Positions 608 through 10,550 of a stretch of DNA of 64,000 nucleotides are shown piece after piece. The DNA comes from Pseudomonadota bacterium (lineage in GTDB: Bacteria > Pseudomonadota > Alphaproteobacteria > Micropepsales > Micropepsaceae), in assembly GCA_021851325.1 (NCBI GenBank), contig JAJZDZ010000004.1:1-64000 (forward strand). The letters are read 5' to 3'. The stretch's first letter is position 1, and each line of letters begins with the position of its first letter. A program made the position numbers and the translations under genes. A model generated the notes under the pieces. That model had not been told where the DNA came from. It saw only the letters and a program-made list of their open reading frames with translations, and did not search any database.

Positions 608-2311
608 TCAGTAGCCGGCGTCGCCATACCACGATGCAAATTCATCAAAGCCAGGAACTTCTGTGGCATTAGCGCGACCATCGATCACCACCTGGACAAC
701 CGCAGGCAGGCCACTCGCCAGGGCCCGCTTCACCGCCGGCGCGATATCTTCAGCGCGATCGACATACTCGCCATAGGCGCCGAAGCCCTCCGCGATGCGA
801 TCGAGGCGAAGCTGCTTACCCCAATGGGCTTCAGTTTCCGGCGACTGCGGACCGAAGGCAGCCTTGTAGACGGTGACTTCCAGACCAAAGGCAAAGTCGC
901 AGCCAACAATACAGACAACCGGAAGCGCTTTGCGTACCGCTGTTTCAAGCTCCGAAATATGGAACAGAAACGATGAATCTCCGGTGATCAGTACAACCCG
1001 ACGACTATCGCCAACCGCCAGCTGCGCCCCGATTGCGTGTGGCAATCCAGTACCTAGGTGACCAAAGTTCTGGCACCATAGTACATCGCGCGGCGTTATC
1101 TGAGCGTATGCACCCGTAAAAATGCTCACCGCTCCACCGTCACGCACGATCACTGTATCTGCAGGAAGCTCGCGGGTTGCCTCGACGGCAAAGCGCGCCG
1201 GATGCACCGGCGTCGAGGTCTTTGGCACCGCCGCAAGCATCTGGGTCTTGAGCGCAGCGGACGCCGCCTCCCAGGTATCCATCTGCCCGCAGGCCCTGCG
1301 CTGCGTCCCTGAGAGCGCCGCCACCAGCTGGGGGGCGACATCACGCAGATCCCCTACCAGGGGCACGTCAATGGCGCGGTTGACCCCGATCGCCAGTGGA
1401 TCACGCTCAATATAGATCCATTTGCGATCGGTCCTACCCTTGGCCCAGTGGCGCCCGACGCCGTAATGCAGAGGCTCTCCAATCTCGGTGCCAATCGCAA
1501 TAACGAGATCTGCGCTGGCCACGATCTCCGTTCCAACCGGTGAAGCATAGGGAAAGGTCCTCTGCTCAAGACCGGGCAACACCGCGGCTCCTCCCGGCGT
1601 CTGGAGAACTGGGCAATTGAGTTTACGGGCAAGCTCCGCCACCAAATTATGGGCGCGCGACACGAATACCCCTTGACCGACCAAAAGAACTGGCACTTCT
1701 GCCGCTTCAATCAGACGTACCGCATCGGCAACCCGGCCCGGATCAGCAGCCTGATGTGTCAGACGGTACTTTTCGGGCGAGGTCACTGGTGGAAGATCAA
1801 GTTGGGCTTGTCCCATGTTCATCGGATATTCGATATAGACAGGACCAGGAGTTCCGCTCAGTGCCCGGCGAAAAGCCTCATGAACAATTTCATCGGTCTG
1901 TTCAGCATACTCAATCACTCCAACGTATTTCATTGCCGCTTCAAAATAGGCAGGTTGAGGCGTGTACTGGAAGCGGCCGCGCCGGACGCGTTGATCAAAC
2001 AGGCGGGGACGCTGACCGGCAATGAAAAGCGTGGGGACATTTTCCTTTGCGGCGCAAATCGCAGCAGCAGCAAGATTGGCTACACCTGGTCCCTGGTTGC
2101 CGACGATCACGCCTGGCCGGCCCGTCATACGCCAAAGCCCATCCGCCATAAAGGCTCCGGCCTGTTCATGATGCGGCGCAATCACGCGCCAACCACGTGC
2201 CTCGGCTGCAATGAACATAGCCACAAAACTCGGATCCGGAATGCCGAAAAGCGTCCTAATCCCTTCGGCTTCCATCAGTTCGAGCAGGCGGTCATGAACG
2301 TAGGTGGCCAA
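608..2311 (-). CDS. Thiamine-diphosphate-dependent enzyme, acetolactate-synthase-like
   Basis: A 567-residue protein with the three-domain layout of the ThDP decarboxylase/lyase superfamily (acetolactate synthase, benzoylformate decarboxylase, 2-hydroxyacyl-CoA lyase). The N-terminal Pyr domain carries the cofactor-activating glutamate in HHEQAG (Glu49); a central domain follows; the C-terminal domain has the ThDP/Mg site starting GDSSF near residue 442 and ending in GCDFAFG. The usual Asn-Asn or Asn-Asp at the second half of that motif is Cys-Asp here. The start is TTG, supported by AAGGAG seven bases upstream. It is the last gene of a six-gene operon after a ferredoxin and a nitroreductase, so its substrate is probably a 2-oxo or 2-hydroxy acid or its CoA ester. 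The exact reaction cannot be told from sequence. Confidence 0.85.
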   Translation of the reverse strand: MATYVHDRLLELMEAEGIRTLFGIPDPSFVAMFIAAEARGWRVIAPHHEQAGAFMADGLWRMTGRPGVIVGNQGPGVANLAAAAICAAKENVPTLFIAGQRPRLFDQRVRRGRFQYTPQPAYFEAAMKYVGVIEYAEQTDEIVHEAFRRALSGTPGPVYIEYPMNMGQAQLDLPPVTSPEKYRLTHQAADPGRVADAVRLIEAAEVPVLLVGQGVFVSRAHNLVAELARKLNCPVLQTPGGAAVLPGLEQRTFPYASPVGTEIVASADLVIAIGTEIGEPLHYGVGRHWAKGRTDRKWIYIERDPLAIGVNRAIDVPLVGDLRDVAPQLVAALSGTQRRACGQMDTWEAASAALKTQMLAAVPKTSTPVHPARFAVEATRELPADTVIVRDGGAVSIFTGAYAQITPRDVLWCQNFGHLGTGLPHAIGAQLAVGDSRRVVLITGDSSFLFHISELETAVRKALPVVCIVGCDFAFGLEVTVYKAAFGPQSPETEAHWGKQLRLDRIAEGFGAYGEYVDRAEDIAPAVKRALASGLPAVVQVVIDGRANATEVPGFDEFASWYGDAGY

Positions 2312-2339
2312 AGTAAAACTCCTTCATGACATGTGAACT

Positions 2340-2681
2340 TCAGAATTTACGTGGAAACATGAACTCGCTGATCTGCTTCTGTTCGTAGAATCCTGCAAAG
2401 TCATAGGGCTTGCTCGCAATGATGCCCTGACTTGCGCATACAGCGTAGCAGTTATTGCAGCTCATACAGCCGTTGGCATCGCCTTTAAGACGCGCCTTCT
2501 GGCTGTCCTTCGGACCAAAAAGCTCAAGTATATTGGCCGGACAGACGACAACGCATAGCTTGCAACCATCACACTTGTCGAGATCAATGGACACCCGGTG
2601 ATAGATCGCCTCATGTGGATCGTCCCAGATCGGGAGGTGATCAGCTGGGACCGCGGCTTTCTCGACACTCGCATCGCTCAT
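2340..2681 (-). CDS. 2[4Fe-4S] ferredoxin
   Basis: A 113-residue protein with two cysteine clusters of the bacterial dicluster type: CDGCKLCVVVCP around residues 39-50 and CMSCNNCYAVC about 30 residues later, enough ligands for two 4Fe-4S centres. Its N-terminal extension (about 35 residues) and aromatic C-terminal tail are longer than in a minimal clostridial ferredoxin. The ATG chosen follows AGGAG with good spacing, and that site overlaps the end of the nitroreductase gene, so translation is probably coupled. It sits between an FMN nitroreductase and a ThDP enzyme, so it likely shuttles electrons for one of them; this is inference. A longer reading frame adds 15 residues upstream but lacks its own ribosome site. 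Confidence 0.9.
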   Translation of the reverse strand: MSDASVEKAAVPADHLPIWDDPHEAIYHRVSIDLDKCDGCKLCVVVCPANILELFGPKDSQKARLKGDANGCMSCNNCYAVCASQGIIASKPYDFAGFYEQKQISEFMFPRKF

Positions 2682-2692
2682 GGCATGATCTC

Positions 2693-3508
2693 CTAATAAA
2701 GGATTTCCTTTTTCCCGTCCTCCCACCAGACAATTTGGTGGGTCTGCCGAGAGATGGCTTGCTGCGTGGGGTTTCCAATTGGGTACCCGACGGATATTGC
2801 TTCGGCGATTTCAAATGGTGGCTGCACGCCTAGCTTTTCAACCAGCGCCGGATTGCTGCTCAGCAATTTCGAAAAGCCAATCCAGCATGTCCCAAGTCCC
2901 ACACTTTGTGCGGCCAGGACAATGTTAGTACCCACCACGCCCACATCTACTTCCGGAACGCCAACGCCACGCTTGTCCATGAGGATCAGGATCACAGTTG
3001 GTGCCCTGTGAAACACGGCAAAGCGCCCATTGGCGATTGATTTGATCGCGGTCATTGGAACCGGGTGAAACGAATTGGGATTTTCACGATTGAGCTTTTG
3101 CGTATTTGCCATGATGACCGCGCGCTGCTCACTACCAGCTGGATAGTTTGTGTAGTCGATGGTTGCCGTCATGTTTTTACAGACTGCAACACAGTACTGT
3201 TCCATCTCTGCGATCATGGCCTTGTCCCGCACCACGACAAATGACCATGGCTGGCAGTTGCCCTGAGATGGCGCGAAGCGCCCCATTTCCAGAATCCGGC
3301 GGATCATATGCGCCGGCACTTGCCGCCCCTTGAACTTGCGAATGCTGCGCCGAGTAAGGATGGCATGCTCTACATCATTCCAGTCCGCCCCGGGCTCAAT
3401 ATCGTGAATGGCCGTCCGACGACGTGCTTTGCGACCAGCCTTCGCCGCAGCGGCATCCAGTTCGCATTCCAGTTCCTCGAGGTCGTGGCTATTGGCAATG
3501 TCGTCCAT
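2693..3508 (-). CDS. Nitroreductase-family FMN protein
   Basis: A 271-residue member of the NfsB/FRP-like flavoprotein family. After a charged N-terminal extension of about 45 residues come the FMN-phosphate contact RRSIRKF and the APSQGNCQPW segment, both hallmarks of the family; GLGTCWIGF near the C-terminus fits the second FMN-contacting region. Proteins of this fold reduce nitro groups, quinones or enones, or act as dehydrogenases, normally as homodimers with NAD(P)H. The start has GGAG eight bases upstream. It lies 36 bases after the acyl-CoA ligase gene, and the ferredoxin ribosome site overlaps its stop. A nearby ferredoxin raises the possibility that electrons come from or go to Fe-S centres rather than NAD(P)H; not proven by sequence. 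Confidence 0.88.
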   Translation of the reverse strand: MDDIANSHDLEELECELDAAAAKAGRKARRRTAIHDIEPGADWNDVEHAILTRRSIRKFKGRQVPAHMIRRILEMGRFAPSQGNCQPWSFVVVRDKAMIAEMEQYCVAVCKNMTATIDYTNYPAGSEQRAVIMANTQKLNRENPNSFHPVPMTAIKSIANGRFAVFHRAPTVILILMDKRGVGVPEVDVGVVGTNIVLAAQSVGLGTCWIGFSKLLSSNPALVEKLGVQPPFEIAEAISVGYPIGNPTQQAISRQTHQIVWWEDGKKEILY

Positions 3509-3544
3509 TATCTTACTCCGCTTGTCGCCCTTTTTCTTTCAATA

Positions 3545-5230
3545 TCAAGCCATTTGCGACTGCACCTGTCCGTGCTGAACCTGGCGGGCCATGTTGTCTG
3601 CTCTGAACTCAGACGGCGAAACCCGCTCCAGCCGTGCGCCGCGATAGGCGTAAACCTCCGCGCCCTCGGCAGATAGCGCCTCAACCAGAAAGCGATCTTG
3701 TGGCTTTTCCGATGCGGTCTTGGGGATTTCTGTCACGACCTGCAGATAGGTCGGTACAAAATTTGGTTCCAGCTTTGTCCGGCAATGGGCAAAAATCGCA
3801 GCAGGCTCAAAGCCACCTTTGCTCGGCACAACGGCAGCGACTACGTCACGTTCGCCTGGTGCACCGTTGGCAGACGGGACGCCGTAGACATAGGTGTCGT
3901 CGACCTTTGGATGTTCAGCCAGGACGCCCTCCACGAAGCCTGGATTTATGAAGTCACCGTTGTGACGTATGCCACCGCCTTTTCGATAATCGAAAAAGAG
4001 CCAGCCCTCTGCATCCCGATGGCAAATATCACCGCTGCGCAGCCATCCACCCAAGGTTTTCTTCTGTGATGCAGACGGATTGTTGAAGTAATTAACCGAC
4101 GCCGCTTCTCCAGTCACTGGCCGGCTAATCAATTCACCCTGCACATGGGGCGCACATTCATTGCCGTCCTCGTCCACAATCTTCATTTCAAGGTTAGGCG
4201 GAGGCTTTCCGAAGCTTCCCACCGGGCCGATGCCTATTGGTTTGAAGGCCATCCCCCCCTCAATCGCACCATAGGCTTCAAGGATTTTAAGATTGAAACG
4301 GCGCTCGAAGCTTTCCCAAATGGCAAATGGCATGCCTGCGCTGAGCACGAAGCGGACTGGATTGTCGGCGTCGTTGTCACGAAGCGGCTCACTGTAGATT
4401 GCCGTAGCCATGCCTCCCAAGAGGTTGAAGAAGGTGCAGCCGTACTTCCTTGTGATATCCCAGAGGCGGGATTTCGTGAACTTGCGACTGAAAACGGCGC
4501 GTTGCCCAAGCCGCAGTGCTGATGCAAGCGTCATAAGCTGGGCATTGCCGTGAGTGAGTGAAAGTCCGGTATAAGGCCGCTCGTCCGCGCCGATGCCCAG
4601 CATCGAGCAGAGCAGGGTTGCCGCTCCATAGCGCGTATTTGGAAAGACAACACCTTTCGGATCACCCGTTGTGCCCGAGGTATAGATGATCTGCAGCGGA
4701 TCTTCACCATCACGCAGGCGCATGTCGACCCAGGCCTGAGGCTGCTCGAGAATTTCACGCAGATCTGTTGTGCTGGATCGGATCCTGCCTGATTCGGCCT
4801 CACCGCTCTGCAACAGCCAGATCCATTCCAGTGCCGGAACCTGAGCGCGCATCTCTTCAACCTGAGCAAGCGAGTAATCGGCGCATACTATCCCCCGGCA
4901 ACCGGAGTTATTGAGCGTATAGGCAAGCTTGCTGCCGCGGGTGCGGGGGTCGATCGGCACAAATACGAGGCCGCTCAGCGAAGCGGCAATCATGAGTTCT
5001 ATGAATTCCGGGTGATTGCGGATCAGGATCGCAAAACGGTCCCCATAGTTCATGCCACGGGCGATCAGGCCCGCTGCCAGTCTATTTGCATTGCTCCATA
5101 GTTGCGCATAGCTGCGGATCTCATCGTCACGCTCATCTCCCCCCTCGAAGGTAACAACGTCAAGATCGGGCGTCGCCTCAGCACGCGCCGCAATAAGGTC
5201 CGCCAGAATCATGTCGTTGAGTGTGCGCAT
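3545..5230 (-). CDS. Acyl-CoA ligase (AMP-forming), CaiC-like
   Basis: A 561-residue class I adenylate-forming enzyme that would activate a carboxylic acid to its CoA thioester via an acyl-AMP. Visible motifs are the P-loop-like IIYTSGTTGDPKGVVFP (residues near 190), YGAIEGG in the adenine-binding region, GWLRSGDI with the hinge segment, and IPKTASEKPQDRF near the C-terminus containing the catalytic lysine region. The last form is typical of carnitine/crotonobetaine-CoA-ligase-like members. It follows the thiolase gene by nine bases in the same operon, and probably feeds the acyl-CoA dehydrogenase and thiolase encoded just upstream. The true acid substrate is unknown. Confidence 0.9.
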   Translation of the reverse strand: MRTLNDMILADLIAARAEATPDLDVVTFEGGDERDDEIRSYAQLWSNANRLAAGLIARGMNYGDRFAILIRNHPEFIELMIAASLSGLVFVPIDPRTRGSKLAYTLNNSGCRGIVCADYSLAQVEEMRAQVPALEWIWLLQSGEAESGRIRSSTTDLREILEQPQAWVDMRLRDGEDPLQIIYTSGTTGDPKGVVFPNTRYGAATLLCSMLGIGADERPYTGLSLTHGNAQLMTLASALRLGQRAVFSRKFTKSRLWDITRKYGCTFFNLLGGMATAIYSEPLRDNDADNPVRFVLSAGMPFAIWESFERRFNLKILEAYGAIEGGMAFKPIGIGPVGSFGKPPPNLEMKIVDEDGNECAPHVQGELISRPVTGEAASVNYFNNPSASQKKTLGGWLRSGDICHRDAEGWLFFDYRKGGGIRHNGDFINPGFVEGVLAEHPKVDDTYVYGVPSANGAPGERDVVAAVVPSKGGFEPAAIFAHCRTKLEPNFVPTYLQVVTEIPKTASEKPQDRFLVEALSAEGAEVYAYRGARLERVSPSEFRADNMARQVQHGQVQSQMA

Positions 5231-5239
5231 GGCTGCCCC

Positions 5240-6475
5240 TTAGCCCTGGGTTAGGATCGTGACACACTGGGCGGCGGCGTCGGTGCCGATGTTGCCTCCA
5301 CCATTGTGGCAAAGTCCGACCCTGGCGCCGTTGACCTGACGGGGGCCAGAGCGACCCTGAAGCTGCTCAGTGATCTCCACGATCTGGGCGATACCGGTTG
5401 CGCCAATCGGATGGCCCTTGCGCAAAAGACCACCAGAGGTCGAGACCGGAATACGGCCACCGAGCGTGGTATCACCATCTGCAATGAGACGCCCACCCTC
5501 CCCCTTTCCGCATAGCCCGATTGACTCGTACGCCATTAATTCGGCGGGCGCCGACGCATCATGCAGCTCGACGAGGCTGAGATCCTCAGGTCCTAGACCT
5601 GCTTCCTCGTAGGCGTCTCGAGCACAAACCTCTGAAAGGCCCTCTGCCCCAGCTTCATGATCCCAGCCTGAACGCAGCACGCTGGCGGCTACCCGCACCG
5701 GCCTTGTCAGACCGAGTTCCCGCATCTTGCGTTCACTAATGATAATTGCTGCGGCAGCGCCATCACCGATTGGCGAACACATCGGGCGCGTCAGCGGCTC
5801 GGCAATCGTCGGCGATGCCAGGACCTCGTCCGCCGTCATGGCTTCACGAAACTGCGCCCGCGGATTGAGCGATCCATGATATGAATTCTTGGCGGAGATC
5901 ATCGCAAAATGTCTGGCGGTCGTCCCGAAACGAGCCATGTGGCTTCGGGCAGCAGCGGCATATATGTCCATAAACATCGAGCGGTTCTTGCCTGCGCTTT
6001 TGGAGGCTTCACTTGCGCCACTTGCCGCGGCCGATTTCTGCAGACCCTCGAGAATGCTCTGGAGATTCTCGACGTCCACCGCTCCCATAAAGGCCCCAAA
6101 TACCTTGGCCTTGTCCTCAAAATACATTTTCTCGAATCCGGCAGCGAGCACGATGTCATAGAGCCCTGCCGTCACCATTGCGCAAGCCTGGTTAAAGGCC
6201 GTTGATGCGCTGGCACAGGCATTTTCCACATTGACGACTGGAATAGCACCAATTCCGATACCACGAAGAACTACCTCACCCCGGATGCATTCCTGCCCGG
6301 AGAGTACCCCCGCAGCAGCATTGGACATCCACGCAGCCTGTATATCTGTCTTGTTGATTCCTGCATCGGAAATGGCTGTAAGGATTGCTTCCCCGCCAAT
6401 CGACTTGAGCCCGCGATCCATCATGCGGCCAAACGCGGTCATACCGACTCCCGCGACATAGGCTTTCATTTTCAT
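5240..6475 (-). CDS. SCP2-type thiolase (acetyl-CoA acetyltransferase family)
   Basis: A 411-residue thiolase of the SCP-x/lipid-transfer branch. The nucleophilic cysteine is in NVENACASASTAF (residues about 82-94), the active-site histidine regions are ELHDAS and GHPIGATG, and CHNGGG closes the fold. All key residues appear present, so it should be an active thiolase rather than an Ltp2-type aldolase lacking the cysteine. It would cleave a 3-oxoacyl-CoA, often branched or cyclic in this branch. GGAGG seven bases upstream supports the ATG at 6475; a second ATG two codons later is possible. It lies 32 bases after the acyl-CoA dehydrogenase gene. Confidence 0.92.
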   Translation of the reverse strand: MKMKAYVAGVGMTAFGRMMDRGLKSIGGEAILTAISDAGINKTDIQAAWMSNAAAGVLSGQECIRGEVVLRGIGIGAIPVVNVENACASASTAFNQACAMVTAGLYDIVLAAGFEKMYFEDKAKVFGAFMGAVDVENLQSILEGLQKSAAASGASEASKSAGKNRSMFMDIYAAAARSHMARFGTTARHFAMISAKNSYHGSLNPRAQFREAMTADEVLASPTIAEPLTRPMCSPIGDGAAAAIIISERKMRELGLTRPVRVAASVLRSGWDHEAGAEGLSEVCARDAYEEAGLGPEDLSLVELHDASAPAELMAYESIGLCGKGEGGRLIADGDTTLGGRIPVSTSGGLLRKGHPIGATGIAQIVEITEQLQGRSGPRQVNGARVGLCHNGGGNIGTDAAAQCVTILTQG

Positions 6476-6507
6476 TTTTAATCCTCCCTTGGTACAGCCC
6501 AGGTCTG

Positions 6508-7713
6508 CTAAAATCTCGCCGCGGCGACCATGCCCAGAACTTCGTTACAACCGTCCTCGATCATCGAAATACGCGCATCGCGGAAAATTTTCTCAATCGG
6601 GCAGTCTCGGGAAATCCCCGCACCACCAAAGATCTGCAACGCGTCGCTTGCAACGTCGAACGCTGCCTGTGTCGACGTGACCTTCGAGGCAATGGCCATT
6701 TCCAGGACAGGAGTGTCCCGGGTCATGTTGATGCGGATGACACGCTGGTTCAGTGCCCTTGCAGCTTCGACCTTCTGGAACATTTTGAACAGGCGTGACT
6801 TGACGCTTTGGTGCGTGAAGATGGTGACGTCGCCCTGAATTCGTGTTTTGGCATAATCGACGGCCAGTTCGAGCGCTGCCCGGGCACAGCCAACAAACGT
6901 TGTGCCCATGCCGCCATTTGCTAGACAGAGGATCCTGTCAGCGGTCGCGCGATACAGCTCAGGCGGCACAACCATCGAGTCCATGGGGACTTTGAGGCCA
7001 TCGAAGAAGATTTCGCCCTGATTAAGGGCCCGCTGGCCGATCTTGTCGGTTGGTTTTCCTTTCTTTACGCCATCCTCATTGAGAGGGACGATGAAGACGC
7101 CACTGCCCATGCGGCCGTCCCCCATATCGACCGCACAGAACAGCGCAGCGGCCTCCGCGATGGTGCCGTTCGATACCCATGCGGATTTTTGGCCGGAGAT
7201 GACCCAGCCGTTGCCATCTCGCCGGGCGAGGCAGTTTGGCCTGCCCGTACGGCCATTGGGATGACCTATGGTGCCTTCAAAGTTGATCATGTCAGAGCCA
7301 TGATCGGGTTCGGTAATCGCCCAGCAACCCAAGGTGCCGACAGGAAAGCGCTCGATCAGGGCCGGATTTCCGGACATCTGGGCCATCATGGATGGAAAAT
7401 TCGAGACACCAAGGCTGATCGCGAGCCCCGCGTCCCCCCAGCCCATTTCCTCACCGACAATGCAGCGGATGCGTGCCTGGTCACGTAGCGACAGATCGGA
7501 ATTTTCTTCGAAAATCCCAAGGCCAAGCTCGCGGTAGCGCCGGAATACGTCCCAGAGGATTGAGTCTCGGGCGATGACATCTCCCGCCGGTAGCTTGTCC
7601 AGTTTCTCGCCCGCCGGTCGCAGCACATCACGCGCAAAGCGGTGCGCGGTGTCCCACGCCGCACGTTCGACCTCGGTCAGGTCCGGATCCAGATCTATTG
7701 CGGGTACGGTCAT
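6508..7713 (-). CDS. Acyl-CoA dehydrogenase
   Basis: A 401-residue FAD-dependent acyl-CoA dehydrogenase with the standard three domains: helical N-terminus, middle beta-barrel (CWAITEPDHGSDM, then ISGQKSAWVSNG), and helical C-terminus with IFGGAGISRDCPIEKIFRDARISMIEDG. It should oxidise an acyl-CoA to the 2,3-enoyl-CoA and pass electrons to ETF. Glutamate in the terminal MIEDGCNEV region is in the place of the base used by many family members. The start was set at the ATG with AGGAG six bases upstream; the open frame runs 25 codons further. It is the first gene of the six-gene operon. Confidence 0.93.
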   Translation of the reverse strand: MTVPAIDLDPDLTEVERAAWDTAHRFARDVLRPAGEKLDKLPAGDVIARDSILWDVFRRYRELGLGIFEENSDLSLRDQARIRCIVGEEMGWGDAGLAISLGVSNFPSMMAQMSGNPALIERFPVGTLGCWAITEPDHGSDMINFEGTIGHPNGRTGRPNCLARRDGNGWVISGQKSAWVSNGTIAEAAALFCAVDMGDGRMGSGVFIVPLNEDGVKKGKPTDKIGQRALNQGEIFFDGLKVPMDSMVVPPELYRATADRILCLANGGMGTTFVGCARAALELAVDYAKTRIQGDVTIFTHQSVKSRLFKMFQKVEAARALNQRVIRINMTRDTPVLEMAIASKVTSTQAAFDVASDALQIFGGAGISRDCPIEKIFRDARISMIEDGCNEVLGMVAAARF

Positions 7714-8645: not shown

Positions 8646-10550
8646 ATGGCGAAAGACTTGTTTGACATTCCAGCGGGGCCACCCGAAGCCATTTTGGGGT
8701 CAGCACGCTTCATTCTCGAAAATACCCTGGACTGCGTCGCCGCAGTGGATCCCACATGGCGTTTTACTTTTCTCAATAAGCGAGCACGCCGGATTATTGC
8801 TGGCGAACGCGACCTTGTTGGCCAAGTATTCTGGGATGTATTTCCACAAGCTGTGGAGCACAAGCTTGGTCAAACCTTTCGTCAGACAATGGCGGACGGC
8901 ATTGCCCGAGAGGTGGAAGCTTACTATGCCCCCATGGATCAGTGGTTCGCATGCCGAACCGTTCGCACACCTGAAGGTCTAATTACCTTTTTCCGCGTGA
9001 CCACCGCAGACCGCGAGCGCGATACTGCCCTCAAAACCACCGAAGCCCGGCTACAGTCCATTTTCACCAATCTCAATGTCGGCCTTACCATTCTCAACGG
9101 CGAGGGCGTCATCTTGGATGCAAACCGGGCAGCCGAACATATCCTCGGCTTTCCCCGCCATGAACTATGCGGCATGTCCGTCGACAGCGCTGCTTGGCGT
9201 GCCGTTGATGCCAATGGCAGGGAACTGGCCGGGCGAGAATTTCCTGCCATGGTTGCACTGCGCACGGGCTCTGTTGTTCGTCAATTCGTGATGGGTGTTT
9301 ACAACCCCGAGCGTGCCCAGAAACGCTGGCTTTCCATTGATGCCTGCCCAATCCGTGTCTTTCCGGACGCCGCTCCGTCCCATGTATACGTTATCCTGTC
9401 TGACATTACGGAACGGCAGGAAGAAGAGCGGGAACTCAAACTCAGTCGTTTATTCATGGCGATGGCTCAGAAAGTCACGTCGATCGGCAGCGCTGCAATC
9501 GACTTCAGAACCGGAAAATGGAACTGGTCTGAGGAAACCTGTCGTATCTATGGTGTCGACCCGCACAGCTTCGTGCCAAGTGCCGCCTCGCTTTCAGCCC
9601 TTGTTCACCCCGACGACCGCAAAGCGCTGCTTTCCGCCCCTGAACTTGCCCGGACAGGCATTACCCCACCTCCGATTGAATACCGTATCCGGCGCACGGA
9701 CGGACAGGAACGCCTGTTGAGGCGCGAGGCGGTTCTGATCCATGACGATGACGGGCAGGTCATCGGAATCGTGGGAACAGTCCAGGATGTTACCGAGATC
9801 CGCGCCAAAGAACGTGAAAAGGAACTTCTCCAGATACAGCTCAATCACTCCCAGCGGCTCGATGCCCTGGGAAAATTCGCCGGCGGCATCGCTCATGACC
9901 TCAACAATACGCTGGTGCCAGTGCTCGCCCTTTCCGAAGTGATCGCCAATTCCTTCTCCCCAGACGACGAACGGGTGCAACTCATCGGCATGATACGAAG
10001 TGCGGCTGAAAGAGGGCGCGATCTGCTCGGACAAGTTCTGGCTTTTACACGCAGAGACTCACCCAACAGACAGTCCATTCACCTCGACGAGTTTCTTCGC
10101 TCTGCGATGGGGCTCTTTCGTGCGAGCACTCCCAGCCCTATCGCGATCACAGTGCAAACGGTACCCATTCCACCCGTTTATGCCGACCCGTCCCAATTAC
10201 ACCAGGTACTCATGAATCTGCTGACCAATGCCACCCATGCAATCGGGCCACAGCCTGGTCAAATCGAGATCATCCTGAATCAGGGTCCCATGCCCGGTAC
10301 CGTAGCAATCCCCGATGAAACTACCACTTATGCCGTTCTTTCAGTTAGGGACACTGGATGTGGAATGAGCGAAGAAGTAAGCGCGAGAATATTTGAGCCA
10401 TTCTTCACCACTAAGCACGCGGGATCCGGAACCGGACTTGGTCTATCTGTCGTTCATGGCATTGTGACCGCGCATGGCGGGAGGATCGCCGTGAAGAGTG
10501 TTCCGGGGGTAGGCACCCGATTTGATATATATCTGCCCTTCGCCAAATAG
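8646..10550 (+). CDS. Multi-PAS sensor histidine kinase
   Basis: A 634-residue soluble kinase with no membrane segment. Three PAS-like domains lie at roughly 20-120, 130-255 and 270-390, the last with HPDDR and the PAC-type ending GIVGTVQDVTE. The phosphoacceptor box is GGIAHDLNNTL with His417. The ATPase domain shows the N box NLLTNATHA, G1 DTGCGM, F box FEPFFTTK and G2 GTGLGLSVV. The lack of a receiver domain and of a neighbouring response regulator makes it an orphan sensor of an unknown cytoplasmic signal. The protein family is of the NtrB-like HDLNN class. Low confidence on any link to the divergent catabolic operon. Confidence 0.93.
   Translation: MAKDLFDIPAGPPEAILGSARFILENTLDCVAAVDPTWRFTFLNKRARRIIAGERDLVGQVFWDVFPQAVEHKLGQTFRQTMADGIAREVEAYYAPMDQWFACRTVRTPEGLITFFRVTTADRERDTALKTTEARLQSIFTNLNVGLTILNGEGVILDANRAAEHILGFPRHELCGMSVDSAAWRAVDANGRELAGREFPAMVALRTGSVVRQFVMGVYNPERAQKRWLSIDACPIRVFPDAAPSHVYVILSDITERQEEERELKLSRLFMAMAQKVTSIGSAAIDFRTGKWNWSEETCRIYGVDPHSFVPSAASLSALVHPDDRKALLSAPELARTGITPPPIEYRIRRTDGQERLLRREAVLIHDDDGQVIGIVGTVQDVTEIRAKEREKELLQIQLNHSQRLDALGKFAGGIAHDLNNTLVPVLALSEVIANSFSPDDERVQLIGMIRSAAERGRDLLGQVLAFTRRDSPNRQSIHLDEFLRSAMGLFRASTPSPIAITVQTVPIPPVYADPSQLHQVLMNLLTNATHAIGPQPGQIEIILNQGPMPGTVAIPDETTTYAVLSVRDTGCGMSEEVSARIFEPFFTTKHAGSGTGLGLSVVHGIVTAHGGRIAVKSVPGVGTRFDIYLPFAK

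Follow-up and report, generated by a model that had tools for sequence, protein, structure and literature searches.

What pathway is encoded by a run of six genes at the beginning of a Micropepsaceae contig, and do its redox and thiamine diphosphate (ThDP) enzymes act as one machine or as separate parts? The run occupies positions 608-7713 on the minus strand of the window, i.e. the whole stretch analysed, 64,000 nucleotides of contig JAJZDZ010000004.1 (assembly GCA_021851325.1, positions 1 to 64,000). From its first gene, it comprises the following features.

6508-7713, minus strand: acyl-CoA dehydrogenase (ACAD), the first gene, recognised by Pfam Acyl-CoA_dh_M/_1, by its orthologs and by alignment to solved short-chain acyl-CoA dehydrogenase (SCAD)
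5240-6475, minus strand: SCP2/BbsB-type thiolase (Pfam Thiolase_C_1, Thiolase_N)
3545-5230, minus strand: AMP-forming acyl-CoA ligase (Pfam AMP-binding, AMP-binding_C)
2693-3508, minus strand: NTR, a divergent nitroreductase-family protein of the flavin mononucleotide (FMN) type, in the redox slot (Pfam Nitroreductase)
2690-2694, minus strand: AGGAG, the FDX ribosome site, which shares bases with the stop codon of NTR (2693-2695)
2340-2681, minus strand: FDX, a dicluster 2[4Fe-4S] ferredoxin, in the redox slot (Pfam Fer4_7)
608-2311, minus strand: ThDP enzyme, a putative C-C lyase with a TTG start, in the lyase slot at the 3' end (Pfam TPP_enzyme_N/M/C)

The intergenic gaps, from ACAD to the ThDP gene, are 32, 9, 36, 11 and 28 bases. 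These coordinates and the AGGAG overlap bear out the original prediction, made from the letters of the window, of six same-strand genes with gaps of 9-36 bases and an FDX ribosome site over the end of NTR. All six genes recur in the same order in genome G050, with gaps of 33, 8, 31, 11 and 28 bases and 87-94% identity to the window. Since six genes are repeated there with near-equal gaps, the arrangement is not a product of chance but a conserved operon, as had been proposed. The window is the first part of a 183-kb contig, and 607 bases separate the 3' end of the operon from the end of that contig; a promoter and terminator scan of the operon gave a result near the chance level. The best explanation of the locus, to which a probability of about 0.47 is assigned, is an accessory acyl-CoA catabolic operon with a conserved core and exchangeable redox and lyase slots, in which NTR+FDX would act as a reductase and the ThDP enzyme as a lyase.

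ACAD, thiolase and ligase form a conserved module, as evident from nine loci that hold all three genes: the window's own genome (G000), G050, G061, G030 and G041 of the same genus, G088, G089 and G093 of a sister genus, and plasmid pMPC6-328K of Pseudomonas sp. MPC6. In the latter four the three proteins are 48-60% identical to those of the window (51-60% in the sister genus; ACAD 49%, thiolase 59% and ligase 54% in MPC6) and the order is unchanged. The genes of G061 are split between contigs C659 (ACAD-thiolase-ligase) and C798 (ligase tail-NTR-FDX-ThDP), which we infer to join into one operon. What follows the ligase differs among the nine: NTR+FDX in five loci of one genus, DUF5938 in four (the sister genus and the Pseudomonas plasmid), and both in one operon in none. 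FDX adjoins NTR in 5/5 loci and the ligase, NTR and FDX are adjacent in all five genomes, ACAD and thiolase preceding them in the four whose contigs are long enough. No NTR, FDX or CxxCxxCxxxC motif was found within the stretches examined of G088, G089, G093 and MPC6, and no DUF5938 (PF19362) match at 1e-15 in G000, G030, G050 and G061; G041 has DUF5938, in a separate paralogous (type-B) module. The complementary presence across the nine loci suggests that NTR+FDX is probably, by sequence comparison, a non-orthologous replacement of DUF5938 as the reductase, or the reverse. The DUF5938 protein of MPC6 combines a saccharopine-dehydrogenase NADP-binding domain with PF19362. Three further plasmid records of 16 matching DUF5938 carry a short-chain dehydrogenase/reductase (SDR) gene next to it, and two of these an AMP-ligase gene too; a literature search with DUF5938 gave no match.

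NTR scores 98.7 bits against Pfam Nitroreductase (cut-off 23.5), the domain beginning at residue 50, and reaches the cut-off of none of the 8 NCBIfam models listed; its predicted structure has a predicted local distance difference test (pLDDT) score of 34 and nothing was inferred from the model. FDX carries two four-Cys motifs of the CxxCxxCxxxC pattern, CDGCKLCVVVCP and CMSCNNCYAVC, as in 2[4Fe-4S] ferredoxins, and the eight Cys residues are kept in 5/5 orthologs. FDX would pass electrons to the FMN of NTR, which may in turn reduce a CoA-ester intermediate at an activated C=C (or C=O). The bacterial 2,4-dienoyl-CoA reductase, which uses Fe-S and FMN centres, offers an analogy.

The core would degrade an organic acid as its acyl-CoA. 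The best solved relatives of the thiolase are the benzoylsuccinyl-CoA thiolase subunit BbsB (222 bits) and SCP2-thiolase type 1 (221 bits), and the thiolase domains, ENACASAS with the nucleophile Cys and GHPIGATG are present in 4/4 aligned orthologs. BbsB and SCP2-thiolase act on aryl or branched 3-oxoacyl-CoAs, and this kinship gives the main hint to the substrate type. The BbsAB enzyme has a BbsA partner subunit; unlike it, the window thiolase has ACAD and ligase as neighbours and no BbsA-like partner. In ACAD, an Asp (IEDGCNE) aligns with the Glu of SCAD YEGTSE, which we take to be the catalytic residue, in 4/4 aligned orthologs; IEDGCNE is also found in MPC6 and G093, and IEDGEN in 7/8 type-B loci, the seven, all but L047, for which the motif was displayed. 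Operon, slots, exchange and conservation are observed directly; which reactions take place and which way they run, where the electrons come from, and that the substrate is bulky (branched, cyclic or aromatic) are inferred.

The paralogous type-B modules (L045, L047, L048, L064, L065, L066, L067, L071) hold ACAD, DUF5938 and ligase genes, and a thiolase gene in all but L066. Their hosts are plasmids of beta-, gamma- and alphaproteobacteria and G041, which has both module types. Eight of the 12 plasmid records matching ACAD were examined; MPC6 is type A and the other seven are type B, with DUF5938 in 7/7 stretches, a count that excludes L071 of G041, found through DUF5938 itself. Sets of APH phosphotransferase, SDR and ACAD genes, presumably akin to ACAD10/11-type genes, occur near both module types (L011, 9-2453; L045, 15918-19039).

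The last slot is taken by a ThDP gene in 6/9 core loci, in agreement with the earlier view that a ThDP enzyme seems to belong with the CoA-ligase/dehydrogenase/thiolase set. Three of these genes are of the window type (G000, G050, G061) and three of another type (G088, G089, G093) that is ~30% identical to the window ThDP and, in G088 and G089, truncated where the contig stops. The benzaldehyde-lyase search of the sister-genus type was made with the G093 protein alone, one of the three; this protein reaches 430 bits with benzaldehyde lyase, 365 with an enzyme of Herbiconiux titled benzaldehyde lyase and 241 with 2-hydroxyacyl-CoA lyase (HACL). The window's own genome gives 3 matches to the ThDP query; at ~1 ThDP gene per 1000 (an estimate, if there are ~3500 genes), two unlike ThDP genes in one slot are unlikely to be due to chance. 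This occupation of one slot by two unlike ThDP enzymes suggests that the ThDP reaction belongs to the pathway, and the window enzyme probably does so as a C-C lyase. It would cleave an alpha-hydroxy-carbonyl intermediate (an acyloin or 2-hydroxyacyl-CoA) to an aldehyde and a second fragment. Another ThDP gene of the own genome (L002, on the 4.6-kb contig C90) is 46% identical to the G093 gene and groups with that benzaldehyde-lyase type.

The window ThDP enzyme has TPP_enzyme_N, M and C domains and, as the catalytic Glu, an invariant Glu49, which place it in the ThDP superfamily. At the places of GDG...N, the metal-binding motif of ThDP enzymes, it has GDS and Asp472 in a conserved stretch, with SDS in three plasmid relatives. 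It exceeds no NCBIfam cut-off among the 25 models listed of 51, the 2-hydroxyacyl-CoA lyase model not being among those 25; the oxalyl-CoA decarboxylase models give 160-185 bits against cut-offs of 557-739. It shares with benzaldehyde lyase and HACL the fold and the ThDP machinery, and its relatives stand beside aldehyde dehydrogenase (ALDH) genes, but it is at most 29% identical to any of the 50 fold matches listed.

Fifteen loci with a window-type ThDP gene were compared, 11 at >=71% identity (window included) and four plasmid loci at 53-56%; rows at 26% (L033, L034), 31-32% (L009, L010) and 39-40% (class genomes G280 and G450; L041 and L042, stretches without the other five window genes) were dropped. 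NTR+FDX accompany the gene in 3/15, and in the other 12 no NTR, FDX or CxxCxxCxxxC motif was found in the stretches examined. Among these 12, an ALDH gene lies beside the ThDP gene in 6 and an SDR gene within ~7 kb in the same cluster in 8, a weakly similar SDR 2-4 kb off in G086 and G090 being left out of the count. An ALDH partner would suit a lyase with an aldehyde among its products. In G086 (L012) and G090 (L014) the ThDP gene directly follows an FA_desaturase-family gene, which may be read as AlkB-like, and an AraC-type regulator is encoded upstream on the opposite strand; in G041 the window-type gene is on a contig other than that of the core, beside SDR and AraC regulator genes. Three Pseudomonas loci hold SDR, TetR and DUF1302/DUF1329 genes, with ALDH in 2/3, and at two loci of Caulobacteraceae metagenome-assembled genomes (L026, L028) the neighbour annotation shows no partner gene. 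The four plasmid loci (L035-L038; Rhodococcus, Mycobacterium branderi and two Sphingobium) carry Rieske oxygenase, Baeyer-Villiger monooxygenase (BVMO), SDR, ThDP and ALDH genes, a set that thus recurs in two phyla; the ALDH of L037 is in two pieces, and the Rhodococcus BVMO scores 675 bits to the PtlE model, below its cut-off. TauD-type dioxygenase genes at the Rhodococcus and Mycobacterium loci suggest that phytanic-acid-type alpha-oxidation may be considered, as one form of the lyase reading.

The original prediction had proposed a joint system, in which the ThDP enzyme oxidises its carbanion and the electrons pass through FDX to the FMN protein, as in a split 2-oxoacid:ferredoxin oxidoreductase or a pyruvate-oxidase-like system; it had also offered a lyase. 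The three genes are adjacent in 3/5 NTR+FDX loci, and FDX resembles, with weak scores, ferredoxins of the NuoI and PorD types. However, ThDP and NTR+FDX part in both directions: NTR and FDX stay together in 5/5 loci, yet G030 and G041 have no adjacent ThDP gene, and the sister-genus operon has a ThDP gene and neither NTR nor FDX in the stretch examined. The prediction itself had named rare co-occurrence of the three as contrary to it, and the 12/15 ThDP loci away from NTR+FDX largely show this. Moreover, 2-oxoacid:ferredoxin oxidoreductases have a POR-type domain set, whereas Pfam recognises in the window enzyme nothing but TPP_enzyme_N, M and C, a domain trio of the acetolactate synthase/lyase type. 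A joint oxidising system is thus highly improbable, while the lyase option of the prediction survives; the gene neighbourhoods point to a reductase and a C-C-cleaving enzyme as separate parts. Alternatively, the ThDP gene may be a passenger from another pathway that joined the 3' end once, leaving a five-gene core as the functional unit. The three operon-linked window-type genes do form one clade of the ThDP tree (100/100) that matches one clade of the core tree (87/99), and the operons of G030 and G041 do without the gene, but a different ThDP gene fills the same slot in three sister-genus genomes, which makes a passenger rather unlikely. It is likewise unlikely, if to a lesser degree, that NTR+FDX is simply an added oxidoreductase (for example a dehydrogenase that hands its electrons to FDX, or a nitro/quinone reductase with the substrate as its target) and the absence of DUF5938 coincidental; among solved proteins, NTR is related to albonoursin synthase and iodotyrosine deiodinase as well as to reductases, but the complementary pattern across the nine loci argues for a replacement.

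Several observations weigh against the explanation by a core with a reductase and a lyase slot. By sequence, no known lyase stands close to the window ThDP enzyme. Its profile scores are of similar magnitude, with acetolactate synthase at the top (218 and 197 bits), then HACL/oxalyl-CoA decarboxylase (OXC) at 193, cyclohexanedione hydrolase at 171 and benzaldehyde lyase at 145; a second comparison again ranks benzaldehyde lyase (125 bits) lower than the best entries of acetolactate synthase (183) and of HACL/OXC (167). A fold search with its model (pLDDT 77) does not discriminate, HKA synthase, benzaldehyde lyase, HACL and acetolactate synthase scoring alike. Of the two residues that we take to be active-site labels of benzaldehyde lyase, His29 aligns with Ser in the window enzyme (across the window-type subfamily Ser, Asn or Ala, the G093 type having His), and at the Gln113 place stands an Arg with a gap adjacent, in a stretch that is aligned differently against acetolactate synthase. 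The window operon has no ALDH that could use up an aldehyde product. A ThDP gene is dispensable to the core, none being adjacent in G030, G041 and, as annotated, MPC6, and the G030 genome gives no ThDP match at 1e-60. DUF5938 is itself functionally uncharacterised, and NTR could equally oxidise. Finally, a tenth locus, a Variovorax thiolase-ligase pair (57% and 47%), has two SDR genes in the redox slot and no ACAD; a Sphingobium ligase (44%) sits in a P450/alcohol dehydrogenase/ALDH cluster without the module; and thiolase relatives (50-52%) lie in other CoA clusters where no NTR, FDX or DUF5938 is annotated.

The distribution of the genes was followed through 96 genomes of seven genera, which make up both the own family and the own order. 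NTR is present in 5/96, all of the window's genus, and was found in the own genome only among 385 sampled class genomes (1e-40) and 398 sampled phylum genomes (profile, 1e-22); plasmid records gave no NTR match at 1e-15 and no FDX match at 1e-6. The ligase is present in 8/96 at 1e-110 and in the own genome only among 344 sampled phylum genomes (1e-120). All three records matching the ligase were examined; of the 107 matching the thiolase, L049-L051 were examined for that match and L043 and L044 for their match to the ligase. The operon is, by these searches, rare and accessory. The combination had been described as one not recognised as a named pathway, and no publication on such an operon was found in the part of the literature that the search displayed.

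If the swap is as proposed, DUF5938 and NTR+FDX should do the same job, so that one assay or complementation could assign both. A slot that takes either of two unlike ThDP enzymes predicts a lyase step, and the ThDP subfamily of the window type, which in Actinomycetota too stands beside Rieske oxygenase, BVMO, SDR and ALDH genes, looks like an uncharacterised tool for C-C cleavage. A bolder proposal, somewhat doubtful as a whole, is that NTR+FDX may constitute a two-component FMN reductase, driven by ferredoxin and so far undescribed, which acts on CoA esters and has displaced an NAD(P)H-dependent DUF5938 reductase, and that the divergent window ThDP enzyme may be the founding member of a C-C lyase family, itself new, that recurs across Pseudomonadota and Actinomycetota in SDR/ALDH cassettes of the alkane, terpenoid or steroid type.

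NnrS, U32, Crp-type regulator or ScdA genes lie within ~7 kb of three operons (L020, L069, L068): NnrS and two U32-peptidase genes, which we take to be UbiU/V-like, alongside the G030 core; NnrS, Crp-type regulator, MFS and MobA genes no more than a few kb away from the operon of G093; and, ~7 kb from that of G089, a ScdA/hemerythrin gene. Such NnrS, U32, Crp-type and ScdA genes have nitric-oxide or anaerobic functions, and an Azoarcus type-B module has cytochrome-type genes nearby. An anaerobic or denitrification link is not claimed, as nothing of the kind was recognised among the genes identified, non-exhaustively, beside the window and G050 operons.

In G041, a carbon-nitrogen hydrolase gene of the nitrilase family (L021, 8053-9033) stands 77 bases upstream of ACAD, a position held by other genes in the three operons compared with it (window, G050 and G030). 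Upstream of the window operon and divergent from it lies a PAS histidine kinase gene (8646-10550), a possible sensor, which is present in G050 too.

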